Of a DNA stretch of 64,000 nucleotides, positions 30,714-46,310 are shown piece after piece (the stretch's first letter is position 1; each line of letters starts with the position of its first letter). The notes under the pieces are model-generated. The model was not told where the DNA came from. It saw nothing but the letters and a program-made list of their open reading frames with translations, and did no database searches. Made by a program: the position numbers and the translations under genes. The DNA lies in NCBI GenBank assembly GCA_021404565.1, contig JAAWWF010000030.1, forward strand, positions 62,001-126,000, read 5' to 3'. The stretch comes from Roseivirga sp. GTDB taxonomy: Bacteria; Bacteroidota; Bacteroidia; Cytophagales; Cyclobacteriaceae.

Positions 30714-31599
30714 AAATTTCGTAATTGAGCCTGGTCAGAAGAGGTTTGGCTACTGCATTAATCTCTTGTCTTTGCGAAGAATTCAGCCTTGCGAGGCTCT
30801 TGTGGTTCATGTTCTGAATTTTCACCTTTTTCTGACCAATTGTAACTTCATTCCCGGCTATTTCAAAGCTGTTTTCTAAACCCAGAAAAGTGCAAATTTC
30901 GTCAAGCAATTCCACAGGTTTTTCGGCAAACTGTTCATATCTCAAAAGCTTGAAATTAGAAACCTTCTCGGCATATTCAAGCATGTTGGTATTGGCCATT
31001 ACCCATTGCTCAGCCGTGGTTGTGTATGAATATTCAGAACTTCCGTATTCATCTATAGCGGGAGCTTTGGGCTTAGCCTTTCGCTTGATTCCTTCCGAAA
31101 CAGCATAACCACTCCTTAAGATTCCAAGGAAGTAGACATTATCAAAGTTCTTATCAATCCATTCCATCCTTTCAATATTCGAGATAGATTTTTCGAGAAA
31201 GAAAGACTTTTTTGAGTCCCAAAAAGGACTCCAGTCTTTGATTATTCTTGATTTTGCCTTATCCTCCGTTTCCGAAGGCAGGCGAATGTAATCCTTACAA
31301 TACACCCAGTTTCTTACCCAACCTATATCATCAGGTCGTTTGAATATATTGGTATAACGCACTCCCTCTTTTGGTAAACACGAGATCTCTCCATGTTCTC
31401 CCAGTATATCTCTCAGAATAGTAGTACCGGAGTTATAACAACCCACCAGAAATATCCATTTCTCAGGCGTCTTTTTTTTGAAGAAAATTGAAAGACCTGC
31501 TCTGAAAAACGGACGAATGTACAGAGAACTAAACAGTTCAGTCCTGATATTTTTTTCTTTTGAAAGAATCTGCCTTAATCTTTTTGCCAGTTTGTTCAT
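30706..31599 (-). CDS. Sulfotransferase family protein (ST-3, module 2)
   Basis: A 297-residue sulfotransferase-fold protein. The PAPS loop reads FLVGCYNSGTTILRDIL (near residue 50), where the usual Lys of PKSGTT is replaced by Asn. The second PAPS region reads FLGILRSGYAVSEGI, and FKLLRYEQFAEKPVELL follows. The Asn for Lys change occurs in other members of the broad family but may alter activity. It overlaps the deacetylase start by 8 bases. Sulfation of a sugar amine exposed by the neighbouring deacetylase, or of a hydroxyl, is inferred. Confidence 0.8.
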   Translation of the reverse strand: MNKLAKRLRQILSKEKNIRTELFSSLYIRPFFRAGLSIFFKKKTPEKWIFLVGCYNSGTTILRDILGEHGEISCLPKEGVRYTNIFKRPDDIGWVRNWVYCKDYIRLPSETEDKAKSRIIKDWSPFWDSKKSFFLEKSISNIERMEWIDKNFDNVYFLGILRSGYAVSEGIKRKAKPKAPAIDEYGSSEYSYTTTAEQWVMANTNMLEYAEKVSNFKLLRYEQFAEKPVELLDEICTFLGLENSFEIAGNEVTIGQKKVKIQNMNHKSLARLNSSQRQEINAVAKPLLTRLNYEIYD

Positions 31600-31623: not shown

Positions 31624-32703
31624 TTAAAGATTAGAGAATATTGACAAATACGAATTCTTTTGGTTTTCCCAATTGAACCAGGAATGGGCTTCGTCAGCCG
31701 TATAATTCTGTTTGAGGATGTACTCGGTAATTTGAGCCGGTGATTCAAAATAATTTTTGGTGAGATACGGAATTTCCCCAATAGGAGTAGAAACAACAGG
31801 TAAACCAGCGGCAATGGCTTCAATTACCACATTGGGCAGCCCGTCAGTTCTGGTTGGATAAACGAATAGATCAGCGGCCTGATAATAAACAGGAATCTCT
31901 TTTCTATCCAGCCTACCAGTTAAGATAATGTCTTCATGACCTAATTCTTCCAGTACTTGTAAAAAAGGTCCGTCACCCACAAAACAAAACTGAAAATCAA
32001 AATGCTCCTGCCGCAGTTTATCCATCATTTCAATGATCCGGTCAATGCCCTTTCCCCAGGTCAGTCTTCCTACAAACAGTAGCGTTTTCTTGTCAGTGGC
32101 AAGTCCAAGACTCTTCTTCAGCTCATTTTTTTCAAGTCCATCTTTATTCTCAAATAAATTCAACCTGAATGGTTGAGCTATCCGCACTAATTTCTCAGCC
32201 GGAAAACCTCTTGAGAGAAACCCTTTTTCTATGCCACGGCCAATCGGCAGGACCCTGTCAGCCTTTCTCAATATCCTGAGCATTATACGTTCGTAAAACA
32301 GAATTTTCCATAACCTGTGCCAAGGATTCTTCGCCAGGAATCTCTCATTGAAAATGTCACCTGTGATTCTGATTACAGATTTTATGCCATGCTTACTTGC
32401 CAACACTGCGACTGCTAAGCCTATTGGATAGGGGTGAGCTACATTGATTATTATATCAGCCGAATTTTCTTTAAGGTACTCTTTAAGCGAATGATAAGGG
32501 AACCTCAGTTGTGAAAGTCTCTTTTTTTCGTTGAACGTATGGGTAGTATAGCATGTATCAATTTGAGTCGTGCTGTACTTATTTGATACACCGGTGATCA
32601 AGGCAAGCTCGAAGTGACCGACAAGCATATCTCCGAAATTGCTCAAAACTGTGAGCATATTGGGCTTCAACTGGCTACTACAAACGAAGAGGATTTTTTT
32701 CAC
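31624..32703 (-). CDS. Glycosyltransferase family 4
   Basis: A 359-residue GT-B enzyme. It has the N-terminal IINVAHPYPIGLAVA acceptor region and the LPIGRGIEKGFL linker. The donor domain has TLLFVGRLTWGKGID, FCFVGDGPFL, ILTGRLDRKEIP and the EX7E-type block YPTRTDGLPNVVIEAIA. The start is GTG at 32703, six bases after the stop of the second deacetylase gene. It is part of the module 2 run. Donor and acceptor are not predictable. Confidence 0.9.
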   Translation of the reverse strand: MKKILFVCSSQLKPNMLTVLSNFGDMLVGHFELALITGVSNKYSTTQIDTCYTTHTFNEKKRLSQLRFPYHSLKEYLKENSADIIINVAHPYPIGLAVAVLASKHGIKSVIRITGDIFNERFLAKNPWHRLWKILFYERIMLRILRKADRVLPIGRGIEKGFLSRGFPAEKLVRIAQPFRLNLFENKDGLEKNELKKSLGLATDKKTLLFVGRLTWGKGIDRIIEMMDKLRQEHFDFQFCFVGDGPFLQVLEELGHEDIILTGRLDRKEIPVYYQAADLFVYPTRTDGLPNVVIEAIAAGLPVVSTPIGEIPYLTKNYFESPAQITEYILKQNYTADEAHSWFNWENQKNSYLSIFSNL

Positions 32704-32709
32704 ACTAAA

Positions 32710-33666
32710 TCAGTTCAGAGCCCTTTTAACTTTCATCAGGAAATTTACCTGATTCAGGTTTTTCACAAAGTACCTCATCTTTTTTATACTCCAGTTGGGC
32801 TGCATCGTAAGCCTGGGGATAAAGTAATCATCCCCATTTTTTTTCATATAGCTCCTTTCAGTTGTAAAGGCATGAGAGATGGAGGCTCTTCTTAAAGCTT
32901 CTCTGGTCTCCTGTTCTACTCTATAACTATCTTTACGGCCATAGGGAAAAGCAAAAAAGGGACTCTTTTTGCCGTAAACACTTTCTATGAATGCCTGATT
33001 GGTTATTAATTCTTCTTCGATAAACTCTTTGGGTTCAATACCACAATTGACATGTTGATGCGTATGACAGCCAGGAACAATTAAATCCGTTTCTTTGAAA
33101 AGGTGTATAAGTTCATCCTCTCGAATAAATGAGTTTTGAGGAATGTCAACCCATTGTCGTATCGCTTGTTCCAGCTGCTCCTGTAGTTTATTTCTTCGAG
33201 GGGCGGGTAACTTTAAAAAAAGAGACCTCATCTCTGAGAAAAAGGAGTCTTTGCTCACGGGGTCATGTACTATGGATTTTCCTTCAAATGCGAACTCAAA
33301 TCTGTGGCTGACCTTTTCTCTCACAAAGTCGAGTAAAAACCACCATGGATGCAGTTCAGAATTTTGAACATAGGCAGAAGCTATAAACCAGGTGGCAGGT
33401 ACCTGTAGCTCTTTAAGAACGGGATAAGCATGGTCAACCATGCTTCTGAAGCCATCATCAACCGTAATCGCCAATCTTCTCGAAGATCGATCTTCCTGAA
33501 CCATTTCATCAAGCCCCACGACATCAAACTCCTGCTTCAACCACGACAGTTGTTGTGATAGATTTTCACGGGTAATACTTCTGGATTGACCGTAGAGTTT
33601 TGCATAAGGACCATTTTTGTCCTCTTCATCATCAACGAAGTTGTGGTAGCATAAAATGAGTTTCAT
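32710..33666 (-). CDS. Polysaccharide deacetylase (NodB/CE4), cytosolic (PDA-2)
   Basis: A 318-residue NodB-homology enzyme with no signal peptide (starts MKLILCYHNF). Motif 1 is LAITVDDGFRSM, with the catalytic and metal Asp pair, and motif 2 is PGCHTHQHVNCG, the HxxxH metal pair near residue 203. FFAFPYGRKD supplies the arginine/proline motif 3. All standard CE4 residues seem present. It would deacetylate a sugar before export. Its ATG overlaps the stop of sulfotransferase ST-4 by 4 bases (ATGA), repeating the deacetylase-sulfotransferase pairing seen at 29005-30713. Confidence 0.9.
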   Translation of the reverse strand: MKLILCYHNFVDDEEDKNGPYAKLYGQSRSITRENLSQQLSWLKQEFDVVGLDEMVQEDRSSRRLAITVDDGFRSMVDHAYPVLKELQVPATWFIASAYVQNSELHPWWFLLDFVREKVSHRFEFAFEGKSIVHDPVSKDSFFSEMRSLFLKLPAPRRNKLQEQLEQAIRQWVDIPQNSFIREDELIHLFKETDLIVPGCHTHQHVNCGIEPKEFIEEELITNQAFIESVYGKKSPFFAFPYGRKDSYRVEQETREALRRASISHAFTTERSYMKKNGDDYFIPRLTMQPNWSIKKMRYFVKNLNQVNFLMKVKRALN

Positions 33667-34577
33667 TCGTATCCCATTTTCTTAGCAACATCATTAGACT
33701 TTTCGTAAAAGTAAGCCAGGATTTCTTCGTCAAAATACTGTCTCCAACTGTCCTTTCCACCGCCTCTTAAGTGAGAGTTCTCATTCGCTACACCAATTTC
33801 TCTTCCCGTAATTTTCTCAAAACTATAGTCATATATTAGCTGTTTGAGTTTCTCATCTGATATTCTGATATCGAGAAATTTAAAAAGGCGCGAAAACTCA
33901 TTGACGGAATCAGATATGAGATTCTCATATCTCAGAATCAGGATATTTTTGTCATCCTTGTGGTTCATCCAACTCTCAAGCAACCCAAACTTATCTTTAT
34001 TGTAAAACTGATCGATCGCATATTTAATCCCTTCTTTTTGATCCAGTTCATTCAACTTATCTCTGTGAACTCCCATATTGGAATGATTGCCCAGTATGTG
34101 GTTTTTCTTGGTTGAGAAATACCATGAAATTACCAGCTCACGAGGGTCTCTCATAACGAAAAACACCTTTGAACTACCCGGGTTCTTTAAGATATCATTC
34201 GTGTAGTTTTCATGGCTGATTTTCATCGCACTCACAATGGACTTTTTCGGAAAAGGTTCCTTAAGATGTATCAAGGGATCGGTCTGTTTCTGCCGAATCG
34301 CTCCCTGGTAGTTATATAATGTCAAACCGGAATACTGATACACCAACGGGTCATTAAGAATACTGCTTATCCAAACACTGCCGGTCTTTTGGATACAGCA
34401 GTGATAAACATTAATATCTTCTGAACGATATTTATTGGCTATGAAGGTATTCCTCAACTTATTTCTTGTATAGGAAGAGTTAAGCAGAATTTGCCTGAGT
34501 GAATAAGGGACTTTATGCCTTAGCTTAGTATTCCTTTTTCTTAGCGTGTTTAGTGAGCGCTGAATTTTCGTTATCAT
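33663..34577 (-). CDS. Sulfotransferase family protein (ST-4, module 2)
   Basis: A 304-residue sulfotransferase. The PAPS loop is VYHCCIQKTGSVWISSIL, of the QKTGS/T kind, and the second PAPS site is VFFVMRDPRELVISWYF. ILILRYENLISDSVNEF follows at the usual distance, and HLRGGGKDSWRQYF near the end matches the RKGxxGxW-type PAPS-closing block. ATG at 34577 is preferred to a TTG ten codons upstream. The gene follows wzx2 after 82 bases and leads a run of genes with short overlaps. Acceptor unknown. Confidence 0.87.
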   Translation of the reverse strand: MITKIQRSLNTLRKRNTKLRHKVPYSLRQILLNSSYTRNKLRNTFIANKYRSEDINVYHCCIQKTGSVWISSILNDPLVYQYSGLTLYNYQGAIRQKQTDPLIHLKEPFPKKSIVSAMKISHENYTNDILKNPGSSKVFFVMRDPRELVISWYFSTKKNHILGNHSNMGVHRDKLNELDQKEGIKYAIDQFYNKDKFGLLESWMNHKDDKNILILRYENLISDSVNEFSRLFKFLDIRISDEKLKQLIYDYSFEKITGREIGVANENSHLRGGGKDSWRQYFDEEILAYFYEKSNDVAKKMGYE

Positions 34578-34659
34578 AGCGGTTGTTATCTTTATTTCGA
34601 AAACCAAATTTGACGATCGTCTTTATCAACATTGACAAATCGGAACACCAGTTTGAAGG

Positions 34660-35985
34660 TTACCTGAGGCTAATGATCTGTTTAAGATTAAATAAACCAA
34701 CGTTAATTTTAAACCTGTTTATGCAAAACAGATAGTCTGTGAGTCTTCTCAAAAATAAAGCGATACTCGTAGCTATTGCTGCACCAACGACTCCGTAAAT
34801 CGGAATAAGCAAATAGTTTAGGAGAATATTCAGCAGTAGGAAGACTAATTCCAATCGGGATATCAACTTCTGATAATCCGACATCGCCAATATCACAGTC
34901 GAAATGCCAAAAAGAGCGCTCAAGGTTCTTCCTAGAGCAAATATCATAACTACTTCATACCCTGCTTCAAATTCAGGACCGAAGATAGATAATATAGGTT
35001 TACCCAGAAAGACCAATACCAGTGATGCTACCAAGGTGAAAGCGAAGTTAAGCAAAGCCATTTTCACAGAATAGGCTTCCACTTTCCCAAGGTCGTTTCT
35101 AGCAAAGAATTCCACAATTTTGGGTTTGGCAATCTGATTCACAATGTTAATTCCGAGGGCCAAAAAGGATATCAGCTGAAAAGACACATTATACACTGCC
35201 ACGTCAACAGACAAAGCTATAGCACCAAGCATCAGAATATCCGCTCTTCGGTTTAGGAAACTTGCGCCACCGTATATGGTGTATGGTAAAGACTTCCTCA
35301 ACCACTCACGCGGCACCATGTTGATTTTCTTAAGTTTCGAAAGGAATTTCATCTCTCTGGAAATCCACCAAAAGGACATGGCAAAAGCAAGGAAAATGGC
35401 GATGGCATTGATCAACATTGCGGTTTGAACATCAACTGTGCCTGTAAATTGATAAACCAGAAACACCCCAATGGTTAGAATCAAATGGCGCAATATTAAA
35501 ATGGGAATATTGGCAATCACTGTTTTTTTGAGTGCTACCAGCAAGCTTTGGTTCAAGTAAGCCAAAACTATCAATGGTAACACTACTAACATGGCGATAG
35601 TATTTGCCGTCCACAGCCACATTTCAGTTTCAACAAGGTAAAAGGCACTTAACAAGTAAATTCCACCAATCACCAGGCTTAATACAAGGGCAAACAACCG
35701 GGTAAACCTAATTAGGCCCTTTATCAGCTCCTGTTTCTGATCGATTAAATACTTTGGCAATAAATGGATCGTCAGGTTGTCAAAGCCCAGTCTTGCAATT
35801 AAAGACAGTGTCATTACCCAGGAAAATATATAGACGAAATCACCATATTCACTGGCACCCAAAATATTGGTTAAAGCCACCTGGCTAAGAAAGGCTATGG
35901 CGGTTCCCAGAAGTTTAACCAGCAAGGTTCCTGAAAACTTCATAAGGGTTTGACCCCCAAACAGCTTTTTAATAAGCGATTTCAT
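34660..35985 (-). CDS. wzx: Polysaccharide flippase (Wzx-2)
   Basis: A 441-residue membrane protein with about 12-14 helices, of the MOP superfamily. The N-terminus has GTAIAFLSQVALTNILGA and EYGDFVYIFSW, typical for Wzx, and the repeat unit near residue 245 (NRRADILMLGAIAL) marks the second half. It would flip the module 2 lipid-linked unit. It is 73 bases downstream of wzy2. The three Wzx proteins in the window are clearly different from each other, as expected if their repeat units differ. Confidence 0.9.
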   Translation of the reverse strand: MKSLIKKLFGGQTLMKFSGTLLVKLLGTAIAFLSQVALTNILGASEYGDFVYIFSWVMTLSLIARLGFDNLTIHLLPKYLIDQKQELIKGLIRFTRLFALVLSLVIGGIYLLSAFYLVETEMWLWTANTIAMLVVLPLIVLAYLNQSLLVALKKTVIANIPILILRHLILTIGVFLVYQFTGTVDVQTAMLINAIAIFLAFAMSFWWISREMKFLSKLKKINMVPREWLRKSLPYTIYGGASFLNRRADILMLGAIALSVDVAVYNVSFQLISFLALGINIVNQIAKPKIVEFFARNDLGKVEAYSVKMALLNFAFTLVASLVLVFLGKPILSIFGPEFEAGYEVVMIFALGRTLSALFGISTVILAMSDYQKLISRLELVFLLLNILLNYLLIPIYGVVGAAIATSIALFLRRLTDYLFCINRFKINVGLFNLKQIISLR

Positions 35986-36058: not shown

Positions 36059-37456
36059 TCAGGCCAACTTTCTCCTTTTTGAAAACCGTACTATTGAGAA
36101 GAAGAGGTAAATGGCGAGGAATGGAAAAATTAGTTTGATACCTCTCACAAAGTCGAGTAAAAAATTATCCAATCCACCCAGCAAGGTCAGACCCCAGCTT
36201 ATAGAAGAAAGGAAGATTGCCTTGGAAAAAATATCATTAGAATTAAAGACCATAGAAATAAAAATCTTCCAGAGTCCTCCTACGAGGAATCCACCAATAA
36301 TAACGCCCCACCAGGAAAACTGCCAGTATAAAATGCCGCCTCCTGAATCCCACCAGATATTAGTCAGGCCTGCTTCCCTCGAGGCTAATGCACGGGCCGT
36401 TCCTTCGTAGGTACCATCTATCGAAATGGGAATGGGTTTGCTGTTCAGGATCATTCTGGGTGTAAACTCAAACAAAATAGAAGGGTAAGTCCTGAAATGC
36501 ACGGGTCCGTAGGTATCTGCATACTCAGCTAAAGAGGCAGAAGTACTGGCCACTGCAGATTTACGGGCTATCTCATAAGTGTAATAGGTCAGAGCAAAAT
36601 TCAGGACACCACTGGATTCGTCCATTGAAAATTGCTCGTTGGACTCAACGACACTCTGAGCCAAGGCCAGGCTGTCAGTTCCTGTTTCATCCACCCGGAG
36701 AACATCCAGAATTGGGCTCACTAAAAACAGTATCAGTACAACACCTACTCCATATCCGATTATCCTTTTCTTGTTAAAACCATTGATCAACACGATGACG
36801 ATTATCATTAGCAGTGGTTTAACAGCATCTCCTCTTTGGTTGTCTATCACCAGACCTATAAAGATTGCAGAAATAAGTACTCCCCAAAACACATAGAAAA
36901 GCCATTTTTTGCTATAAAATCCAGTCAGTTCATCGGCTTTCTTTCTTCGGTAGTAAGTGAGTAATAAGCTGGTAGTGAGCGCTAAAAAGAGAATTTTCAG
37001 CCCTCCGATCAAACCAAAACTCCCTGCTTCTGCCGGGTTGTTCGTGTACAGTTGGGTGGCATGGCCATAGGCATATCCCTGTTTATAATGCCAAAAGAAG
37101 GCCCCCATACACACGAGCCATGAGAATAAGGCCACCTGATCCTCAACAAAAGATTTCTCTTTAAGTATACGAATCTTGATAGGCGAGCATAGCTCATATC
37201 CCAACACCCACACAATGATGAATACCAGGTTTATGGTAATACCTTTGATCAGGTATTCTGGTTCTATGTAAGAGAATAACTCCTTACCACCAAGACCAAA
37301 CTGATAGACTAATATGAAGCAATTGGAAAAGAACATAATTGATGATGCCAGAAGCAAAAAGAAGGTCATGATCCTGTCATCAGTAAAGAAACGCCAAAAG
37401 GCGTACACCTGAATAATGATAAAACCAACCAGAATTAGGATTAGATCAACACCCAC
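36059..37456 (-). CDS. wzy: Oligosaccharide repeat-unit polymerase (Wzy-2)
   Basis: A 465-residue integral membrane protein with about 12 helices and a long hydrophilic loop at residues about 255-375 containing FEFTPRMILN and WDSGGGILYWQF. Topology and context (next to wzx2 and between SDR genes) indicate the module 2 polymerase. The LVIDNQRGDAVKP block near residue 205 resembles the oligosaccharide repeat-unit polymerase family, which differs from the ligase-like Wzy-1 and Wzy-3. The start is GTG at 37456. Wzy sequences are very variable, so the call rests largely on topology and neighbours. Confidence 0.8.
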   Translation of the reverse strand: MGVDLILILVGFIIIQVYAFWRFFTDDRIMTFFLLLASSIMFFSNCFILVYQFGLGGKELFSYIEPEYLIKGITINLVFIIVWVLGYELCSPIKIRILKEKSFVEDQVALFSWLVCMGAFFWHYKQGYAYGHATQLYTNNPAEAGSFGLIGGLKILFLALTTSLLLTYYRRKKADELTGFYSKKWLFYVFWGVLISAIFIGLVIDNQRGDAVKPLLMIIVIVLINGFNKKRIIGYGVGVVLILFLVSPILDVLRVDETGTDSLALAQSVVESNEQFSMDESSGVLNFALTYYTYEIARKSAVASTSASLAEYADTYGPVHFRTYPSILFEFTPRMILNSKPIPISIDGTYEGTARALASREAGLTNIWWDSGGGILYWQFSWWGVIIGGFLVGGLWKIFISMVFNSNDIFSKAIFLSSISWGLTLLGGLDNFLLDFVRGIKLIFPFLAIYLFFSIVRFSKRRKLA

Positions 37457-37486: not shown

Positions 37487-38467
37487 TCATTTTTTCATGA
37501 ACCACTCCACCGTGCTCAAGAGTCCTTCTTTCAACTCCACGCCAGGCTCCCACTTAAGTAGCTCTTTTGCTTTTGAGGTGTCTGAAAAATTACGCATAAC
37601 ATCCCCCAGGCGTTTTTCTCCATGGATAACATCAAAGCTGTCAACGCCTTTTTCACGCAGGCACTTCACCAATAGATCTGTAACTTCCAGAACAGTTGTT
37701 TCACGATTGGTAGCAATTTGAAAAACCTCTCCTCCTACTCCTTCAGTCGTTGCTCCTGCCAGGATTGCCAGAATCAAGTCTTCGGTAAAGATAAAATCAC
37801 GCGTTTGACTTCCGTCTCCGTAAATTTCCAAAGTTTCTCCATTTAGCGCCTGCCTTATGAATTTGGCTACCACGCTACTTTTATGTGTAGAGCCAGGTCC
37901 ATATACGTTACCAAACCTTAAGGCAACCGTGCCAACTCCAAAAGTTCGGGCGTAAGACGAGCAATACCCCTCTCCTGCCATCTTGCTGGCCCCATAAGGG
38001 GAGACGGGATGACAAGCCAATTCTTCATGTATAGGTGGATTACACTCTCCTATAGGAGCTCCACTGGAGGCAAAAACAAATCGCTTGATTTTGTTTCTAC
38101 GAGCAGCCTCAAGGTAGTTGAAAGTACCTATTACATTGGTAACACAATCCATTCGCGGGTTTTCCACCGAAGGCCCAACACCTGTATTAGCCGCCAGGTG
38201 GACGATTACATCTGCTCCGGAAGATACTTCAATCGCCAGGTTCTCATCCAGTATATCTCCCTGAATAACCTGTATCTCCTTTGCAGACCAGTCTGCCTGC
38301 TTTATGGTTTCTTCTCTATAGTTATCAGTAGCATAGTCCAGGTCATCAGGAGTGCCAACACTAAAATTATCAATCACACGAATGGAATCTTCGGGATTCC
38401 GATTGATCAGCATTTTGATGAGGTTTCGGCCAATAAAGCCACAGCCTCCGGTAATTAACCAATTCAT
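37487..38467 (-). CDS. NAD-dependent epimerase/dehydratase (GalE/WbpP-like SDR)
   Basis: A 326-residue extended SDR enzyme: GGCGFIGRNL at the NAD site, IDNFSVG, VHLAANTGVGPS, FASSGAPIGEC with the catalytic Ser, SPYGASKMAGE with YxxxK, LRFGNVYGPGS and YGDGSQTRDFIF. It is most like UDP-glucose/UDP-HexNAc 4-epimerases. The serine-alanine-proline block in place of SSxxVYG is a variant seen in part of the family. It is two bases downstream of the UDP-sulfoquinovose synthase gene, so the two probably act in the same donor-sugar supply, but the substrate is not decidable. Confidence 0.85.
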   Translation of the reverse strand: MNWLITGGCGFIGRNLIKMLINRNPEDSIRVIDNFSVGTPDDLDYATDNYREETIKQADWSAKEIQVIQGDILDENLAIEVSSGADVIVHLAANTGVGPSVENPRMDCVTNVIGTFNYLEAARRNKIKRFVFASSGAPIGECNPPIHEELACHPVSPYGASKMAGEGYCSSYARTFGVGTVALRFGNVYGPGSTHKSSVVAKFIRQALNGETLEIYGDGSQTRDFIFTEDLILAILAGATTEGVGGEVFQIATNRETTVLEVTDLLVKCLREKGVDSFDVIHGEKRLGDVMRNFSDTSKAKELLKWEPGVELKEGLLSTVEWFMKK

Positions 38468-38469
38468 AT

Positions 38470-39621
38470 CTACTTGTTCCAGATTACACGAGGCATTATT
38501 TTCGATTCGTCTATCAAGTCTTTGAACTGAATGACTTTCTCCAACATCGATGCAGTTAAATCATCAGTCAGATAATGCGGCTTTAAACCCAAATCAAGCA
38601 ATCCCGTATTCTTAGGGTTATAATAGTGATCTTCAGGTTCCTTTCTAGGGTTAGGAATAGGCTTGATCTCAACGTTTAAACCTATTGAGTCACCCACCCG
38701 CTTAATAATAGCCGCTAGTTCGTTTACTGAAAAGGTTTCGGTTAACTGATTGTAAATCTTCAATTCACCAGCGCCTGCGGGGTTCATACAAGCTAATTCC
38801 ACACATTGAAGGGTGTCATTAAGGTTAAGGTAACCTCTGATCTGTCCACCCTTTCCATATACGGTCAGTGGTACACCTGCAACTGCCTGTACCAAAAACC
38901 TATTAACAAGAGTTCCAAAAATATCGTCATAGTGAAAATTAGGCAGAAGACGATCATCCAGATCTGTTTCAGGTGTGGAAACTCCATAAACAGGTCCTTG
39001 CATGAGATCTGTCACCTTAAGTTTAAAGGTTCTTGTATAGAACCACAACAGGTCTGTATCCAATACCTTGGTAGTATGATAGAGGCTTCCTGCCTGTCTC
39101 GGGTATAAAAATTTCTGCTTTCTACCCTTGTGCTCAATGTCCAACCAACCTTCTTCAATGTCAATATTCGGAGTACCATATTCTCCCATGGTGCCCAACT
39201 TCACAATATGACAATCCGGAGCATGGTTCATAATCGCCCACACCAAATTATGTGTTACCTCCAAATTGTTGGTAAGCGTATAGTGAGCTTCATCATAACC
39301 CCGAAGTGAATATGGAGCAGATGGTTGTTCGGCATAGTGAATTACCACATCAGGGGTAAACTCAGAGAATAATGATTCAAAAAACCTGAAGTCTTTGAGG
39401 TCACCAATTCTACATTCCAGGTTATGACCTGTAATTTCCTTAAAAACCTTTATACGCTCTTCCAAATTAGGGTTTGGCATGAGCGCCTCAGAAGAACTCT
39501 GCATGGCAATCAAACGCCTGCTGTAATCATCTACGCCTAAAACTTCATGCCCCTTGCTGGCAAAATGCATCATAGTAGGCCAGCCCAGATAGCCATCCGC
39601 GCCTAAAATCAGTATTCTCAT
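38470..39621 (-). CDS. sqd1: UDP-sulfoquinovose synthase homologue (SQD1/Agl3 family)
   Basis: A 383-residue SDR enzyme with strong resemblance to plant SQD1, which makes UDP-6-sulfoquinovose from UDP-glucose and sulfite. The NAD site is GADGYLGWP. The family-specific catalytic stretch KLGTMGEYGTPNIDIEEG runs from residue 141 and contains Thr144. SLYHTTK carries Tyr181, His182 and Lys185, matching the Thr-Tyr-Lys set of Arabidopsis SQD1 with nearly the same spacing. Further family blocks are EQPSAPYS, MQGPVYGV, FGTLVNRF, VYGKGGQIRGYLNL, QLTETFSVNELA and PNPRKEPEDHYYNPK. Length is as for SQD1 without a transit peptide. It sits four genes after an APS reductase that can supply sulfite. No sulfolipid synthase is nearby, so the product probably goes to polysaccharide. 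Confidence 0.9.
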   Translation of the reverse strand: MRILILGADGYLGWPTMMHFASKGHEVLGVDDYSRRLIAMQSSSEALMPNPNLEERIKVFKEITGHNLECRIGDLKDFRFFESLFSEFTPDVVIHYAEQPSAPYSLRGYDEAHYTLTNNLEVTHNLVWAIMNHAPDCHIVKLGTMGEYGTPNIDIEEGWLDIEHKGRKQKFLYPRQAGSLYHTTKVLDTDLLWFYTRTFKLKVTDLMQGPVYGVSTPETDLDDRLLPNFHYDDIFGTLVNRFLVQAVAGVPLTVYGKGGQIRGYLNLNDTLQCVELACMNPAGAGELKIYNQLTETFSVNELAAIIKRVGDSIGLNVEIKPIPNPRKEPEDHYYNPKNTGLLDLGLKPHYLTDDLTASMLEKVIQFKDLIDESKIMPRVIWNK

Positions 39622-39631
39622 AATCGCTGTA

Positions 39632-40654
39632 TTAAATAATTTTGTTTGTTACTAAATAGTCGAGTAGCTCAGCCTCCTTCATAAATTCCTCCTTATCAGA
39701 TCGATATACTTTATCTATCGTATCAGATACAAATCCGGGATAAGAGCTTAGTGTATCCAACATTAAACCGCCTACTTTAAAGGCAGGCTTTACCACAAAG
39801 TATCTTTCCAGTTCAGAGGTTCTCCTTACCTCCTCTTCGTTCATAAGCTCTTCGTAGAGTTTTTCTCCTGGTTTAGCTCCGATAATTTTTATTTCTATTG
39901 ACTTTTCCTGTGCCAGATGACGAATCATAGAAATGGCAAGGTCTTCGATTCTGATAGTTGGCATTTTGGTCACAAAGACCTCACCCCCTTTTGCCAGGAA
40001 CACACTCTCCATCACCAGGCTAACCGCCTCTTCAAGAGTCATAATAAAACGAGACATATCGGGGTCAGTCAATGTTACAGGTCCTCCTTGCTCGATTTGT
40101 CTTTTGAATAGTGGTATCACACTCCCATTCGAACCCAAAACGTTCCCAAATCTTGTAGACGCAAAAACTGTTTTGCCGCCTTTCACTGAAGTGTTCGCAG
40201 CGGTGATAAGACGCTCTCCCATAAGTTTGGATGTACCCATTACATTGGTAGGGTTCACTGCTTTGTCACTGGATGTGTAAATAACACGTCCGACACCCGT
40301 TGCTTTAGCTGCCTCTATTACATTTTGAGTACCAATAATATTAGTCAGAATCGCCTCTCCGGGGTTTTTTTCGTTGATGATCACATGCTTCAAAGCTGCC
40401 ACATGCAGTACAATATCTACGGAATCAAAAAAATTCAGCAGGTGGGATTTTTCCCTGATATCGCAAATGCTGAGAGATATAATTGGATTGGTCTTATACT
40501 CCTCCATAAGGAAGAATAATTCGCTTTCATTATTATCCAGTCCAATTACTGATTCAGGCTCGAGCTTGCTGATCTGCCTTAGCAATTCCTTGCCGACAGT
40601 TCCACAAACACCCGTTATTAATACATTCGTTCCTTTCCAGGGATTATCGTTCAT
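39632..40654 (-). CDS. UDP-GlcNAc 4,6-dehydratase (short CapD/FlaA1-like SDR)
   Basis: A 340-residue cytosolic polysaccharide-biosynthesis SDR without the membrane domain of long WbpM/CapD proteins. It has GVCGTVGKEL, HVAALKHV, TSSDKAVNPTNVMG, STRFGNVLGSNGSV and TDPDMSRFIMTLEEA. The catalytic Tyr of YxxxK is Met (NVMGTSK), the S-M-K form known from WbpM, in which Asp and Lys of SDKAV still support C6 dehydration. Expected product: UDP-4-keto-6-deoxy-HexNAc. It is 10 bases before the UDP-sulfoquinovose synthase gene in the module 2 run. Confidence 0.88.
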   Translation of the reverse strand: MNDNPWKGTNVLITGVCGTVGKELLRQISKLEPESVIGLDNNESELFFLMEEYKTNPIISLSICDIREKSHLLNFFDSVDIVLHVAALKHVIINEKNPGEAILTNIIGTQNVIEAAKATGVGRVIYTSSDKAVNPTNVMGTSKLMGERLITAANTSVKGGKTVFASTRFGNVLGSNGSVIPLFKRQIEQGGPVTLTDPDMSRFIMTLEEAVSLVMESVFLAKGGEVFVTKMPTIRIEDLAISMIRHLAQEKSIEIKIIGAKPGEKLYEELMNEEEVRRTSELERYFVVKPAFKVGGLMLDTLSSYPGFVSDTIDKVYRSDKEEFMKEAELLDYLVTNKII

Positions 40655-40737
40655 TTTTGTAATACTTTAAAGTTTGGGATTGAATTAGTTGGAGTCGAGG
40701 CACATCAAAAAAAGAAAGGTACAAGATATATTCGTCT

Positions 40738-41643
40738 TTAGGAATTAAGGAATAATGTATAATCCCGGAAGAGTTCTGTAACTCTTTCCTCCAATACGTT
40801 AAGCTGTTCAATTCTTTCATCTCCTTGTGGAAGAATATCATATCTCACCCTTACGTCCTGATCTGTATAGCTCACTTCAAGCATCTGATCGAGTTTTCGT
40901 AAAATCTCCACGATGTTCAGTGGGGATACCACTGCATCAAAAACGTCATAAATACCCGGGCTTATTTTGTGGTTTAAACAGTCTTTGATAGTAGAAGCTG
41001 CTTGCGTAATATTGGTAACGCCCCTCCGCTGTTGACCCGAACCAAAAACTGTTACTCTTCTTCTTAACGCGGCTTGAAGTACCATACCGTTAACAAAAGA
41101 ATCAAAATGCCCCACAGGTGCCTTTCCATAAAGAATTCCACACCTGAGTATCCAGGAGTTCATGCCTGAGTTGTTGGCTATATCTAAAATGATTTTTTCG
41201 GCAGCAAGCTTGGACTTAGGGTAGGGTGATAAACCAAAATGAACTTTACCTTCCTGATCGACAGGCCCGTAGACAGATAATGAACTCGCAAAAATCACAT
41301 CGCTGACTCCGGCTGCCTTTGCCTTCTCCATTAAAGCCTCTGTCCCGTTAATATTATTGGTGTACAAGGCGGAGCCATCGTATACACCGAGAGGCGTGTT
41401 AACCAGGGCCGCCAAATGAATCAAACAATCGACTCCTTCCAGAGCAAAGTCGAGGTCGTAAACATCAGAGATATCTCCATCGATATACCTGAAACGAGGA
41501 TCATTCAGTCCATAAAAGGCCTCTATCCTTCCAGATCTCTGGTTATCCAGAACCACAATTTCCTCAACCTTACTAGTTTCTTTCAGTATTCTAATAAGTC
41601 CAGAGCCTAAATACCCTAAACCGCCTGTGACTAATACTCTCAT
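40738..41643 (-). CDS. NAD-dependent epimerase/reductase SDR
   Basis: A 301-residue extended SDR: GGLGYLGSGL at the NAD site, LDNQRSG, IHLAALVNTP, FASSLSVYGPV with the catalytic Ser, SPYPKSKLAAEK with YxxxK, and LRCGILYGKAP. YGSG is replaced by VFGSGQQRRG near residue 197. It is shorter than GalE-type enzymes. Its ATG overlaps the stop of the APS reductase gene by four bases, a strong sign of coupled translation. A role in making or modifying a module 2 donor sugar is likely; the reaction is not known. Confidence 0.8.
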   Translation of the reverse strand: MRVLVTGGLGYLGSGLIRILKETSKVEEIVVLDNQRSGRIEAFYGLNDPRFRYIDGDISDVYDLDFALEGVDCLIHLAALVNTPLGVYDGSALYTNNINGTEALMEKAKAAGVSDVIFASSLSVYGPVDQEGKVHFGLSPYPKSKLAAEKIILDIANNSGMNSWILRCGILYGKAPVGHFDSFVNGMVLQAALRRRVTVFGSGQQRRGVTNITQAASTIKDCLNHKISPGIYDVFDAVVSPLNIVEILRKLDQMLEVSYTDQDVRVRYDILPQGDERIEQLNVLEERVTELFRDYTLFLNS

Positions 41644-42326
41644 TCTTCTTTATGAATACCGCACTCTGTTTTACTCTCGCCTTGCCACCTTCCAGACCGG
41701 GATTCGCTATCGCCATACACAGGTGAGGTGCAAGGTTTGCAGCCTACACTCATATAGCCTTTACTCAAAAGCGGATGTTCCGGCAGTTTGTGTTCTGCCA
41801 TGTATTTAAACACATCTCTTTCTGTCCAGTTGATCATAGGGCACACTTTGACCTTACCATCCTTTTGTAGATTGAACAATCTTAGTTTCTGGCGTAAAGA
41901 GGTCTGGTCGGATCTGACTCCGGAAATCCAGGCGCTATAGTGTTCAACAACACTTCTCAGAGGTATGGTCTTATTTATGTGGCAGCATTTGTCAACGTTC
42001 TTCTTATATAACGGCCCGTAAATCCTCAAAAACTCGGAGTGGCCCAGTGTTTTCGAAACGTTCAATACATTTAGTCCCCATCTTTCCAGCAGGTCATCTC
42101 TGAACGCCAGTGTCTCCTTAAAATGAAATCCAGTATCCAAAAAAAGAATTGGTACTTCAAAATCTAATCTGGAAATCATGTGAAGTAGCGGGATACTCTG
42201 AGTTTGAAAGGAAGAGGTCATCACCAATCGTCCGTCAAAGAGCTCGTTGACTGACTGCATTACCTCTTCGAAGTCTGCTTGTTGCAGTTCCGAATTATAA
42301 GCGTCTATCTGGTCGTGGGTAATCAT
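41640..42326 (-). CDS. cysH: Assimilatory adenylyl-sulfate (APS) reductase, [4Fe-4S] type
   Basis: A 228-residue sulfonucleotide reductase of the PAPS/APS reductase family. SSFQTQS near residue 38 is the P-loop-like site and LDTGFHFKET (63-72) matches the family. The four cluster cysteines of APS-type enzymes are present: Cys114-Cys115 (KCCHIN) and Cys196/Cys199 (GCKPCTSP). SRSGRWQGES precedes the catalytic Cys222 in ECGIH. Such enzymes reduce APS to sulfite and AMP with thioredoxin. It lies inside the module 2 gene run between wzz2 and SDR genes, away from cysN/D or sulfite reductase genes, which none of the window carries. A dedicated sulfite source for the sulfoquinovose synthase is the natural reading. 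Confidence 0.93.
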   Translation of the reverse strand: MITHDQIDAYNSELQQADFEEVMQSVNELFDGRLVMTSSFQTQSIPLLHMISRLDFEVPILFLDTGFHFKETLAFRDDLLERWGLNVLNVSKTLGHSEFLRIYGPLYKKNVDKCCHINKTIPLRSVVEHYSAWISGVRSDQTSLRQKLRLFNLQKDGKVKVCPMINWTERDVFKYMAEHKLPEHPLLSKGYMSVGCKPCTSPVYGDSESRSGRWQGESKTECGIHKEE

Positions 42327-42375: not shown

Positions 42376-43473
42376 TCACTGGCTGTTTTCAACAATTGCA
42401 GGTTCACGATCTCTATTTTTTACCAGGTATATTATTGAGGCAATAATTCCTCCTAAAAGCGTCCAGGTGATCAGGATATTAAGCTTTTGCGGTTCTGAAG
42501 GCACCACCGGAACTCTGGTTGGTCCTACTTTAGCTAAAAACGAACTCGAGCTCTGTGCAGCCAAAACTGCCTCCTGATAAGAATTACTCAAAGTCAGATA
42601 GACACTATAAATCAGGTCTTTCCTGTTTCTTAACACCTCAACTTCTGACTCTGCTGCCCTGGTACTTAAGGCCTGATTAGAATCAAGAAAATCGGCCAAA
42701 GCCTTTTGCGCGCTCAAAAACTCCTTCCTCTTCGCCTCAAGTTGTGTTTCTACAAACTCCAGATTCTTTAAGTTCTTTTCTTTGGTATATTTATCCAGAA
42801 AGGCCTTAAGCTTGTCATAGCACCTCAAACTTACCTGTGCAGAGCCTTGAGGGTCTTGCAGTTTGATGCTTATAGACAACATAAAAGTTTCCACGTCAAC
42901 AGACACTTTCAAGCTTTCCTTAAAACGATCTATTAAACCCTCATCTTCCAGAGAGATGTTCAAGAAACTGCCTCCCATGCTTTTTGACGATCCGCCCTCA
43001 TCGGAAGGCTTTTTCTTGAAAAGCTTAAGAATATACTTATAGCTACCCAAAACAGAGGAAACAGGGCTTTTCCTGGTCTCTTCCAGATAAAAATCCCTAA
43101 GTGTTAAACTGTCTCCTACCGTTGAAAAGTAGAATTTATCATCCAGAATATCCAAGATCAACTCGTTGTCCTTCAAAACTTCTTCATAAGCCATTGGAGT
43201 CAGACTTCCCCCCGATTGGAGTTGAGGCAACCTTACTCCTGCCAAACCGACCAGGCTACTGAGTGCTCCGAGATTAGGACCACCAGATTTATAGTCCATA
43301 AACAGTTTTGTGGAGGTCTGCCATTCTTTTGGCGTAGTCAGGGCTATTGCTAGTCCTAAAACAACGAATATGGAGGAAACTTTGATTACCCAAAGTTTCC
43401 CTTTCCATAGCAACTTGGCCATTTCAATAATGGAAACTTCATACCGAACTTCAGATTTCTTATTCACTGGCAT
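42376..43473 (-). CDS. wzz: Polysaccharide co-polymerase / chain-length protein (Wzz-2), no kinase domain
   Basis: A 365-residue inner-membrane protein with helix one at residues about 32-50 and a C-terminal helix near 330-352. The periplasmic coiled-coil part (about residues 220-300) is rich in charged repeats around ETQLEAKRKEF. Blocks SSLVGLAGV, DSLTLRDFY and KVGPTRVPVVPSEPQKLN link it to Wzz-3. Like the other copies it lacks a kinase domain. It is 27 bases downstream of wza2 and 49 bases upstream of the APS reductase gene. Confidence 0.9.
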   Translation of the reverse strand: MPVNKKSEVRYEVSIIEMAKLLWKGKLWVIKVSSIFVVLGLAIALTTPKEWQTSTKLFMDYKSGGPNLGALSSLVGLAGVRLPQLQSGGSLTPMAYEEVLKDNELILDILDDKFYFSTVGDSLTLRDFYLEETRKSPVSSVLGSYKYILKLFKKKPSDEGGSSKSMGGSFLNISLEDEGLIDRFKESLKVSVDVETFMLSISIKLQDPQGSAQVSLRCYDKLKAFLDKYTKEKNLKNLEFVETQLEAKRKEFLSAQKALADFLDSNQALSTRAAESEVEVLRNRKDLIYSVYLTLSNSYQEAVLAAQSSSSFLAKVGPTRVPVVPSEPQKLNILITWTLLGGIIASIIYLVKNRDREPAIVENSQ

Positions 43474-43500: not shown

Positions 43501-46113
43501 CTAGCGTGACAATCGCTCAACAATAAATGCTAATGTGGTCAACGAACTAGCCATTGCCACAATAGATTGAAAATTGACAGGTGGCCTTTCTGGCTTTTTA
43601 GTAATGACAATAGTTGCCCCAGGCTCAATTTTCGGATACTTCTTAAAGAAAAGGAACCTTTTCACACCCCTGCGTTCTCCATTGGGGTACTGGACAAAAC
43701 TACGTCCTCTTTTGGCTGTCATCAAAAAGCCACCAGATATACGGATGTAATCTTTAAAACTTAAGGACTCATCGTACCTAAAGTTAAGGGGCGAGGTAAC
43801 CTCCCCGGCTACTCTTACTGTCTCGAGTTTTGATGGTATTGAGATTATATCTCCTGGTTTTACTATGATATCATCCTTTGACCCAGGGTTCATCATTATC
43901 TTTCCCATTTCTAAAGCCACCGGCTCCAACTTTCTGAAATCCGAATAGTCCACCAGCGAATCGCGTTTGGCAAAATCCCGCATGATATCACGCCTGATCT
44001 CCACTCCTCCAATGTCTTCATGATTGGCGTTCTGAGTCATCGATTTAAGTTGATTCACTCTCTTTATTAAGGCTTCAGCATCTTCGTTTTTAAGTTGATT
44101 TTGACCCTCAAGAATTTTCGACCTCAGTTGGTCAAGATCTTGAGTAGAAATAGGACTCTTATTTTTGTTGGTTAACGACAATTCACTTTGCCTAATGAGG
44201 ATGGCCCCTTCGAGATATGCAAATCCAGTAGTTCCCTGAGCTCGTTTAATAATATCGGAAATGCGCTCATCCTTTCGACTTATTGTATATAAGCCAGGAG
44301 CATTCACCTCTCCCTCTATCCGCAGATCTCCCTGAACTTCATATCCCGGAGACATTCTGACATATACCTGATCAAACGGTTGTAACAACAGAGAGCGATC
44401 ATCACTGGATAGGGAAAGGTCTTTGTTTATAGAGATAGTAATTATTTCTGCCAACCCCATGTCTCCTGATTCCTGATTTCTCCTGGAAATCTCAATATTG
44501 GCCCCGGAAGATGAGCTCATAAAACCTCCGGCCAATACGATCAGATCTTGTACGCTCATTTGTCTGAAAAAAGGAAAGATGCCAGCATTCGGAACTTCCC
44601 CTGCTATTCTTACAAAGTATTCTTCTTGCAAATCATATATAGAAGGCACCTTGATGACATCCTCTTTCAAAAGTGAAATATCAGCCATTGAACCGTTCAA
44701 CACAGCATTAATATCTACGGCCAAAATCTCCTGAGACAAATCTTCTCTAAGCCTGTAGATTGTACCCCTGGCACCAAAGGCATCCCCTCGCAGGCCGCCA
44801 GCATTTTCAATGGCAGTTTTTAAGGTAAGTCCATCTTTAAGTTGGTAGTCTCCAATTTGGGCGACAGCTCCCTGAATGGTGATTCGATTTGCAAAACGAT
44901 CGAAGATTCTTCCTACTTTAATCTTATCGCCATTGGCTACAGTAAAATTTTCAAACTCGTCTGACTTTACGTCAATGATTTCTTTTTCACTGGCTCCGTT
45001 TCGATGAATTGTGATCAGGGATCTATTAGCCCTATCGGCAAATCCATAGGCAAAACCCAATACATCATCAACCGTTTCGCCTTCCTTCATTTCATAAAGC
45101 CCCGGCACTTTCACCTGTCCAGTCAAATCCACTCTCAGGTCGTAAGGGGGTACAATGATCACATCTCCACTTTTCAGCCTTAAATCTCCGGTTTTGGCAC
45201 CGGTTGTAAGAAATGCATAGATGTCTACTGTGGTGAGTAATTTATTGTTCCGCACAACTCTTATGTTCCTGAATGAACCTAGAGTACTGGGCCCACCTGC
45301 GGCATGAAGAGCTGTGTATACCGTTGCCAGGGACGGAAGTGCGTACATTCCGGATTGACTTACTGCACCGAAAACTTCAACATTAATTGTTTTGATGGCA
45401 CCAAGGCTCACCTGGTAAAAAATTGAAGGCGGCTTATCCCCTTGTCCTTTAAGCCCTCCGTAAACCTGGCTCAATCTATTAATTATTTTCCTGGTTGCCT
45501 GTTCAATCGAAAGCCCGTTGACCTGAATGGGACCAAGATTTTGAGGTCGTATCGTCCCTTCCTGAGAAACAGGAAATCTAAAAAATTGCTGAGTAGCTCC
45601 CCAGAGATCAAGGGTCAGTTCATCTCCCGGGCCCAATATGTAATCAACAGGCGTGGGTAGATCAAGGTTCGGGGCAAAGGAAAGTCTCGATTTTCTAAAA
45701 AGTTCGAATCCAAAGATTTTCTTTTCTTCACTCGTTAAAGACGGTAAGGCGTCCCCTGAGAGTATCCCAAAAACGTCCGAGGCGCTTGCCATATCTTCTG
45801 ACCGGGTTCTGTTATCGTCAACCCCATTACCGTTGACCATGGTGCCTCCAGATAAGCTCATGATTCTGGCTCTTAACTTAGCTATTTGACTCTCCGAGAC
45901 GCCCCTTTCTCTCGCCAATGCTTCCATTTGGGATTGAGAAAGCCCCCTCTCTTTTGCCTGATTTACATAGTTGAGAATTTGACTATCACTCAAATCATCT
46001 ACATTGACAGATTGCAGGTTCGAAAGTCCACCTGATTGTGAGTACACATTGGTATGACATAAGACAAGCAACACAAGCATTGCTAAAACGGGAATACGGA
46101 TATTTTTTAACAT
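43501..46113 (-). CDS. wza: Polysaccharide export outer-membrane protein with multiple SLBB domains (Wza-2)
   Basis: An 870-residue exporter: signal peptide (about residues 1-26, ending NVYSQ), a helical LSDSQILNYV segment, the polysaccharide export motif YILGPGDELTLDLWG, then about six SLBB repeats (examples: GAVSQSGMYAL, GEVPNAGIFPF, GEVNAPGLYTI) and a C-terminal hydrophobic tail. It shares long blocks with Wza-3, such as KIINRLSQ(V/I)YGGLK and (S/N)LRYD-type C-terminal sequence, and is less like Wza-1. ATG at 46113 gives a clean signal peptide; a TTG 16 codons upstream does not. It is the first gene of module 2. Confidence 0.93.
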   Translation of the reverse strand: MLKNIRIPVLAMLVLLVLCHTNVYSQSGGLSNLQSVNVDDLSDSQILNYVNQAKERGLSQSQMEALARERGVSESQIAKLRARIMSLSGGTMVNGNGVDDNRTRSEDMASASDVFGILSGDALPSLTSEEKKIFGFELFRKSRLSFAPNLDLPTPVDYILGPGDELTLDLWGATQQFFRFPVSQEGTIRPQNLGPIQVNGLSIEQATRKIINRLSQVYGGLKGQGDKPPSIFYQVSLGAIKTINVEVFGAVSQSGMYALPSLATVYTALHAAGGPSTLGSFRNIRVVRNNKLLTTVDIYAFLTTGAKTGDLRLKSGDVIIVPPYDLRVDLTGQVKVPGLYEMKEGETVDDVLGFAYGFADRANRSLITIHRNGASEKEIIDVKSDEFENFTVANGDKIKVGRIFDRFANRITIQGAVAQIGDYQLKDGLTLKTAIENAGGLRGDAFGARGTIYRLREDLSQEILAVDINAVLNGSMADISLLKEDVIKVPSIYDLQEEYFVRIAGEVPNAGIFPFFRQMSVQDLIVLAGGFMSSSSGANIEISRRNQESGDMGLAEIITISINKDLSLSSDDRSLLLQPFDQVYVRMSPGYEVQGDLRIEGEVNAPGLYTISRKDERISDIIKRAQGTTGFAYLEGAILIRQSELSLTNKNKSPISTQDLDQLRSKILEGQNQLKNEDAEALIKRVNQLKSMTQNANHEDIGGVEIRRDIMRDFAKRDSLVDYSDFRKLEPVALEMGKIMMNPGSKDDIIVKPGDIISIPSKLETVRVAGEVTSPLNFRYDESLSFKDYIRISGGFLMTAKRGRSFVQYPNGERRGVKRFLFFKKYPKIEPGATIVITKKPERPPVNFQSIVAMASSLTTLAFIVERLSR

Positions 46114-46310
46114 ATAGATAAATTTGTCGGCAAATGCATTCTTATATGAAACATCAGGCAATTTGGCCTGTCCAACTGCAGGCCTTGTTTAGAAAAATCT
46201 GGTACAGAGGTGTATATTTTATTATCCACATCAAGGGGATGTGTAAAAGTAGTTCTAGTATTCGAACTCAGCAAAATGACTCCAAATAAAAGTCGGTAAA
46301 AACATTTTTA
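46114..46310 (-). promoter_or_regulatory. Leader/promoter region of module 2 with a GC-rich hairpin
   Basis: A 197-base gap between the fcl stop and the wza2 start. It should end the module 3 transcript and start module 2. It contains a hairpin, GGCCTG (46165-46170), an 8-base loop, CAGGCC (46179-46184), located 51 to 71 bases upstream of the wza2 ATG, so it could be in the mRNA leader. No T-tract follows on either strand, so it is not a typical terminator. I could not find a convincing Bacteroidota promoter. Confidence 0.35.

Follow-up and report, generated by a model that had tools for sequence, protein, structure and literature searches.

Does a polysaccharide gene run in Roseivirga sp. 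make a sulfonated sugar with sulfite of its own production? The question is raised by a 64,000-nucleotide stretch of contig C16 (G000:C16:62001-126000, hereafter the window; genome of 8.57 Mb in 81 contigs), where a gene for CysH, a reductase of adenosine 5'-phosphosulfate (APS) or 3'-phosphoadenosine 5'-phosphosulfate (PAPS), lies near a gene for a homologue of SQD1, the uridine diphosphate (UDP)-sulfoquinovose synthase. The best-supported reading, which we hold to be fairly probable, is that sulfite made locally serves the C6 sulfonation of a sugar in a Wzx/Wzy polymer. One sugar of the polymer probably carries a sulfonate that is bound to carbon. This sugar may be sulfoquinovose or its N-acetyl analogue; that it is exactly sulfoquinovose is a real possibility but somewhat doubtful. 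Four genes are central and follow one another from 42326 down to 38470:

41640..42326, minus strand: cysH, (P)APS reductase of 228 residues with CC, CxxC and ECGIH cysteines (family and motif match), the proposed local source of sulfite
40738..41643, minus strand: extended short-chain dehydrogenase/reductase (SDR), GalE-like, here called SDR301, overlapping cysH by 4 bp
39632..40654, minus strand: PF02719 nucleotide-sugar dehydratase, the usual partner of the SQD1 clade of the window, with the motif SDK...Mx3K and Pen (6BWC) as closest solved relative
38470..39621, minus strand: SQD1-family enzyme of the Pro100 type by sequence, fold and motifs, the proposed synthase of a sulfonated nucleotide sugar

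The SQD1 homologue carries T144, Y181 and K185 and the block KLGTMGEYGTPNID starting at residue 141, as the earlier note on this DNA had described. Residues 2-383 aligned with Arabidopsis SQD1 at an E value of 1e-129. The three best Protein Data Bank matches of an AlphaFold model (input: the window sequence and 22 of 68 eligible sequences) were SQD1 entries, with a template modelling score of 0.94 and an E value of 9e-46 to 1qrr, and the next fold followed at 4e-19. Arabidopsis SQD1 is thus by far the closest solved protein in both sequence and fold, and the match is far beyond chance. The full-length fold is accompanied by the Thr-Tyr-Lys triad and the [ST]MG signature (T144, M145, Y181, K185) that Table 1 of PMC8987622 lists for UDP-sulfoquinovose synthases. 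In a quick tree, from which the SQD1 pieces of L074 (271 residues) and L099 (151 residues) were left out, the PF02719-linked SQD1 proteins belonged to a single clade (79 rows) that was separate from the SQD1 proteins of plants, rhizobia and roseobacters (support of 100 in the Shimodaira-Hasegawa-like approximate likelihood ratio test); nine of these rows had no adjacent PF02719 gene. H95, M145, Y181 and K185 were conserved in 79/79 rows, and alanine mutants of their counterparts in Agl3 are described as inactive in the available part of PMC4388408.

The window CysH has cysteines at residues 114, 115, 162, 196, 199 and 222 and therein the CC, CxxC and ECGxH set of APS/PAPS reductases. The identification as an APS reductase on cysteines 114/115, 196/199 and 222 thus held at the level of the broader families, where the protein exceeded the NCBIfam cut-offs for phosphoadenylyl-sulfate reductase (NF002537, 235 versus 154 bits) and cysH (TIGR00434, 196 versus 165 bits). 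It fell below that of the narrower APS_reductase model TIGR02055 (168 versus 235 bits). The genome contains a second cysH (C21, 2251-2967), which passed the APS reductase cut-off (253 versus 235 bits), and so the window copy is not the sole, housekeeping cysH; had it been so, the proposal of the earlier note would have failed by that note's own condition. The closest CysH among the matches listed was the SQD1-linked copy of another genome of the family, G185 (59% identity); the other listed rows from the family were 34-48% identical, and the C21 protein shared 29% identity with the G185 copy. For SDR301, the closest solved relatives were a mixture of epimerases, dehydratases and unnamed SDRs.

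The earlier note had called for a search for other loci that combine cysH and SQD1, and such loci were found in several phyla and in differing gene arrangements. SQD1 was present in 5/245 genomes of the family to which the window belongs; the searches of the order (390 genomes) and the phylum (395 genomes), with at most four candidates scored per genome, returned only the SQD1 of the window. A single row with the order cysC-D-N-Q-wza-wzz-cysH-SDR-PF02719-SQD1-SDR-wzx was found in G185. In G058, PF02719-SQD1 occurred with no cysH in 20 kb, and the SQD1 of G157 lies on a 3-kb contig. The wider comparison used the best 80 of at least 580 relatives in public genomes; many contigs were short, so all counts of neighbours are lower bounds. 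A cysH-like gene lay within 12 kb of SQD1 in 8/80 relatives and within 3 kb in seven of these, the copy of L044 being a 159-residue remnant and that of L043 divergent and below the family cut-offs. Neighbours also included cysC (six loci), cysD or cysN (four) and sulfotransferases (ten). On plasmids, 12 of 22 matching loci were read, and two of them, from Pelagovum and Rhodobacteraceae M382, had cysH beside an SQD1 of the Arg type, with an annotated sulfotransferase between the two genes in M382. The arrangements differ: cysH stands upstream together with an SDR gene in the window, G185, L021, L022, L026 and L027 (in L041 the pair is 8.7 kb away), upstream without this SDR in L043, and downstream in L064 and, as the remnant, in L044. 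In a quick cysH tree with many long branches (three duplicate rows removed), the SQD1-linked copies fell in at least three places, where the alphaproteobacterial copies grouped with an alphaproteobacterial cysH, that of L043 was distant and the remaining ones clustered.

Nine genomes were searched whole. In three of them, drafts of unstated completeness (G957, G959, G963), the only cysH found adjoins SQD1, and no NIR_SIR match was obtained; G964 likewise gave no NIR_SIR match, with its cysH elsewhere than at the SQD1 locus. The recurrence of cysH beside SQD1, including these three genomes in which no sulfite reductase was found, supports a local supply of sulfite for sulfonation. In a control anchored on gmd in the same family, cysH was found in 0/40 regions and cysDNC in two; the 40 regions (38 of 20 kb and two of 12-13 kb) had been picked by the analyst from the gmd matches. 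As to chance neighbourhood, a binomial estimate for 7/80 loci within 3 kb at an assumed rate of 0.003 gave 6e-9, which was set aside because the loci are related.

Some SQD1 loci were unusual in other respects. In L104 and L107, plasmids of Haladaptatus and Natrinema, two SDR genes come after the archaeal SQD1 homologue; this arrangement resembles that of the window but lacks the PF02719 partner. In L138, a Rhodococcus plasmid, the homologue is flanked by genes for a SulP sulfate transporter and an alkyl sulfatase, and a glycosyltransferase gene is also present. The single locus L050 encodes two SQD1 homologues, one at 6.3 kb and one at 10.0 kb.

The remaining genes of the run, with two sulfotransferases of neighbouring runs, are as follows:

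43501..46161, minus strand: Wza-type polysaccharide export protein (PF02563, SLBB)
42376..43473, minus strand: Wzz chain-length protein (PF02706)
37487..38467, minus strand: extended SDR, here called SDR326; nearest solved relatives are UDP-sugar 4-epimerases
36059..37456, minus strand: putative Wzy polymerase of 465 residues, labelled so by the earlier note; no family match
34660..35985, minus strand: Wzx flippase (PF01943)
33663..34607, minus strand: sulfotransferase (PF00685)
31624..32703, minus strand: family GT4 glycosyltransferase (family match), one candidate transferase for the sulfonated sugar
30706..31599, minus strand: sulfotransferase (PF13469)
29005..29808, minus strand: sulfotransferase (PF00685)
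27860..29017, minus strand: family GT4 glycosyltransferase (family match)
26953..27711, minus strand: family GT2 glycosyltransferase (family match)
53582..54496, minus strand: sulfotransferase of a neighbouring polysaccharide run (PF13469)
13844..14755, minus strand: sulfotransferase of another neighbouring polysaccharide run (PF00685)

The overall order on the minus strand is therefore wza, wzz, cysH, SDR301, PF02719, SQD1, SDR326, putative wzy and wzx, followed beyond wzx by sulfotransferases, a deacetylase, a DUF2334 protein and glycosyltransferases. Wza, Wzz and Wzx, markers of a Wzx/Wzy-dependent locus, were matched by family; the Wzy candidate had neither a Pfam nor an NCBIfam match. The claim of a one-strand run between wzz2 and wzy2 stood as to strand and tight order, but SDR326 intervenes between SQD1 and the putative wzy. 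Of the genes between cysH and SQD1, described as two SDR genes, one is an extended SDR (40738-41643) and the other the PF02719 dehydratase (family match at 1.9e-97). No RNA families or tRNA genes were found in the window. SLBB/wza-type genes at 19285, 43501 and 61985 suggest three adjacent polysaccharide runs, one of which contains a heparinase II/III homologue at 50942-52534. The genome is larger, at 8.57 Mb, than those of eight genus-mates searched (4.1-4.7 Mb), and SQD1 was found in 0/8 of these. A foreign origin of the contig was considered and rejected, since the tetranucleotide correlation of the window reached 0.96 against C21 and 0.93-0.95 against the flanking parts of C16; this test is weak, as stretches from other genomes of the family reach 0.92-0.93.

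Sulfate activation is encoded on the same strand to the right of the window (locus L007), where an UpxY antiterminator and sugar genes (the latter labelled by our own reading) accompany four genes that lie 7-11 kb past the window edge and ~30 kb upstream of cysH:

L007 6906-7679, same strand as the window run: cysQ (NCBIfam cut-off passed)
L007 7676-8938, same strand as the window run: cysN (NCBIfam cut-off passed)
L007 8938-9843, same strand as the window run: cysD (NCBIfam cut-off passed)
L007 9830-10684, same strand as the window run: cysC (NCBIfam cut-off passed)

UpxY, too, exceeded at least one NCBIfam cut-off. The APS kinase at L007:9830-10684 has an extra N-terminal stretch of ~80 residues, which presumably resembles DUF2061. 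A single CysD was found in the genome, and it belongs to this run; a PF01747 sulfurylase was not found. Genes for PAPS synthesis and sulfotransferases thus occur together in one polysaccharide locus, as in loci for sulfated polysaccharides. Because the window encodes five sulfotransferases, including three in the SQD1 run, and cysCDNQ lie beyond its edge, the polymer is probably also O-sulfated; the picture of the polymer in the earlier note, which took account of neither gene set, was incomplete. With CysH in the same run, APS can therefore be split between PAPS and sulfate esters on one side and sulfite on the other, and the single CysD makes sulfate activation common to both uses.

From the genes, their order, their catalytic motifs, the folds and the recurrence of the gene pairs, all of which are observed, we infer the reactions, the sugar and its place in the polymer as follows. 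The run would make a C6-sulfonated nucleotide sugar for a Wzx/Wzy exopolysaccharide and supply the sulfur itself. CysDN, whose genes lie ~30 kb upstream in the same-strand run, would form APS from sulfate. Part of the APS would be converted by CysC to PAPS for the sulfotransferases, with CysQ removing 3'-phosphoadenosine 5'-phosphate, and another part would be reduced to sulfite by the window CysH. The SQD1-family enzyme would oxidise C4 of a UDP-hexose, remove the C6 hydroxyl and add sulfite at C6, and the product would be UDP-sulfoquinovose or a close relative, with the PF02719 partner and the SDRs supplying or modifying the sugar. A glycosyltransferase would then place the sugar in the repeat unit, which Wzx would move and Wzy polymerise.

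A number of observations weigh against this reading. Position 100 of the window SQD1 is Pro in 79/79 clade rows and Arg in 10/10 rows of plant/rhizobial type, a grouping of our own in which Arabidopsis SQD1 alone has an established function. The Arg101 of Agl3, whose R101A mutant was inactive according to the available part of PMC4388408, is replaced by Pro100 in the window protein. The window SQD1 also missed the cut-off of NCBIfam NF041015 (444.9 versus 575 bits); this cut-off was discarded as a discriminator, since 0/10 scanned proteins reached it, including one from S. meliloti (332). No cysH was found in the DNA examined for 72/80 relatives, and in G060, which has the gene order of G185, the cysH match covers only 80 residues and is lost at E 1e-15. 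A Fisher test of cysH in 8/80 loci against 0/40 control regions gave only p = 0.05, and the control is imperfect, other export or assembly markers being present in only 11/40 regions at our thresholds. NIR_SIR proteins are encoded in the genome of the window and in G185, G060, G956, G958, G960, G961 and G962. Within the family, a cysH-like gene occurs in 223/240 genomes and two or more in 70/240 (count from table), against the five genomes with SQD1. Of 20 family cysH regions read, nine (L234 and L236-L243) contain cysH paired with a relative of SDR301 and no SQD1; a sulfite-reductase relative was nearby in five of the remaining 11 and not in six. Finally, no sulfoquinovosyl transferase could be named.

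The identity of the sugar depends largely on the PF02719 partner. This protein had Pen (6BWC), a UDP-N-acetylglucosamine (UDP-GlcNAc) 5,6-dehydratase, as closest solved relative (254 bits, the second-best relative scoring 193; identity of 46% across 308 aligned residues) and as top Foldseek match of its AlphaFold model (input: the window sequence and 29 of 62 eligible sequences). The [ST]DK with Yx3K of Pen is retained in part: SDK is kept, with Asp and Lys, the acid/base pair, in 72/72 partners, and Met replaces the catalytic Tyr in 71/72, giving the Mx3K listed for the 4,6-dehydratases WbpM and PglF in Table 1 of PMC8987622. Because of the WbpM/PglF-type Met and the closeness to Pen, these sequence features point toward UDP-GlcNAc chemistry beside the sulfonating enzyme. 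A PF02719 gene lay within 1.5 kb of SQD1 in 68/80 loci from many phyla, in 67 on the same strand. In a FastTree tree, without the proteins of G185, G060 and G058, those beside SQD1 grouped together (support 91), separated from most of the remaining PF02719 proteins that these loci encode; the exception was L055, whose "adjacent" protein is of the other type and whose farther copy falls in the partner group. An SDR326 homologue was found within 3 kb of SQD1 in 33/80 loci. In a mirror-tree test, SQD1 and PF02719 identities correlated no better (r = 0.29) than those of SQD1 and SDR326 (0.31), which therefore gives no support for a private partnership.

These data bear on two versions of the sulfonation step. 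In the narrower one, plausible without being probable, the SQD1 homologue alone would form ordinary UDP-sulfoquinovose from UDP-glucose, and the PF02719 protein and SDRs would make other sugars of the repeat unit such as N-acetylquinovosamine. The full-length similarity to SQD1, the retention of nearly all catalytic residues, the WbpM/PglF signature of the partner and the mirror-tree result fit this version. It leaves unexplained why a PF02719 protein of nearly always one type stands so close to SQD1 in most loci, and neither the absence of such a partner from the 12 plasmid loci read nor the change of Arg to Pro at position 100 agrees with it. In the other version, speculative and rather unlikely, the PF02719-SQD1 pair, present in many phyla, would produce a new activated sulfo-sugar by two enzymes acting in turn. 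First, the Pen-like enzyme would make UDP-GlcNAc-5,6-ene, to which the Pro100-type SQD1, its sugar pocket opened by the change from Arg to Pro, would add sulfite to give UDP-6-sulfo-N-acetylquinovosamine (N-acetyl-sulfoquinovosamine); the SDRs may epimerise C4. The pair would then be a system that bacteria use generally to make sulfonated surface polysaccharides, into which CysH was recruited several times as a source of sulfite. In outgroup rows that lack a PF02719 partner, position 100 is Pro in three bacterial and two archaeal proteins and Arg in two from Agrobacterium/Rhizobium, which means that Pro is not confined to proteins with this partnership. No paper on sulfoquinovosamine was found in the open-access PMC literature. 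The label "UDP-sulfoquinovose synthase" may be wrong in detail for the Pro100 clade. Local sulfite for a sulfonation, as the earlier note proposed, is favored by the recurrence of cysH beside SQD1 and by the second cysH copy; sulfoquinovose itself is left unsettled by Pro100 and the Pen-like partner.

The other explanations concern the sulfite. Since cysH-SDR pairs stand without SQD1 in the family, SDR301 is not specific to a sulfo-sugar and the pair is not exclusive to such loci, which limits the claim of a dedicated route; the pair has another role there, perhaps a different sulfonation. Cysteate synthase consumes sulfite. Sulfonolipids are known in Bacteroidota (PMC11211663, available part; PMC9304779 reportedly also deals with them), and CysH with its overlapping SDR could be a unit for the sulfite step of, for example, capnine synthesis that does not feed SQD1. 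We regard this as quite improbable. The L021 and L041 pairs, though near SQD1, do fall inside the group of stand-alone pairs in the SDR and cysH trees, but the pairs of the window, G185, L022, L026 and L027 lie outside that supported group (99) in both, and cysH occurs beside SQD1 without SDR301 in L043, L064, Pelagovum and M382. Moreover, eight proteins of the stand-alone loci L241, L239 and L234 included no recognisable sulfonolipid enzyme in NCBIfam, where the presence of such models was unchecked. To a low probability we also assign general sulfate assimilation, in which the run would double as an assimilation locus and SQD1 would draw on a common pool of sulfite. The only CysD found lies in the window's run, and C13 encodes a 726-residue NirA/sulfite-reductase-like protein that reached no curated cut-off; yet it is the C21 CysH, not the window copy, that passes the APS reductase cut-off, and the three draft genomes with an SQD1-linked cysH and no sulfite reductase found do not fit. 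Use of the window cysH for housekeeping only was rejected in view of the C21 copy. Finally, the Pro100 clade might use no sulfite and act as a 5,6-dehydratase or epimerase that makes an unusual non-sulfonated sugar. The loss of the Arg that Agl3 requires and the 5,6-ene that Agl3 yields when sulfite is absent (PMC4388408, available part) agree with this. Such a function is distinctly unlikely, given that cysH from more than one lineage stands beside the clade in different arrangements and that cysC and cysD or cysN recur near it.

If the SQD1 clade is tied to surface polysaccharides across phyla, many non-photosynthetic bacteria would make sulfonated polymers. C-sulfonates resist acid and the sulfatases that remove sulfate esters, and such polymers would for this reason be an easily overlooked pool of organic sulfur. 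Sulfolipids also contain carbon-sulfonate sugars. Such sugars occur as well in N-glycans of Sulfolobus (PMC4388408), and one of them, sulfofucose, is known from glycolipids of algae and N-glycans of Thermoplasma (PMC12421959), according to the available parts of both papers. The available parts of PMC9549778 and PMC7356697 contain nothing on a sulfonated bacterial polymer. The earlier note knew of no bacterial exopolysaccharide locus with cysH and SQD1, and none was found in the open-access PMC literature, subscription papers being outside its scope.

Among known systems, the SQD1/SqdB enzymes of the plant and rhizobial sulfolipid pathway share with the window protein the full-length fold, the Thr-Tyr-Lys triad, the TMG signature, His95 and Met145. 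The window clade differs by Pro in place of Arg at position 100 and by its PF02719 partner, and its genes lie in polysaccharide loci, whereas those of S. meliloti and Loktanella directly precede a single glycosyltransferase. Agl3 of Sulfolobus acidocaldarius is likewise an SQD1-family enzyme that serves a surface glycan and not a lipid, but it needs Arg101, and the available part of PMC4388408 mentions no coupling to cysH, Wzx/Wzy or sulfotransferases. Pen of Bacillus thuringiensis is nearest to the PF02719 partner in sequence and fold and differs in its active-site Tyr, for which the partner has the Met of WbpM/PglF. Assimilatory CysH resembles the window copy in cysteine pattern and family scores; the latter is embedded in a polysaccharide run. 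The sulfated capsular locus of Vibrio sp. KMM 8419 (PMC11641403) also has cysC, cysN, cysD and sulfotransferases within a polysaccharide locus, but its modification is a sulfate ester, and neither cysH nor SQD1 is mentioned in the available part of that paper.

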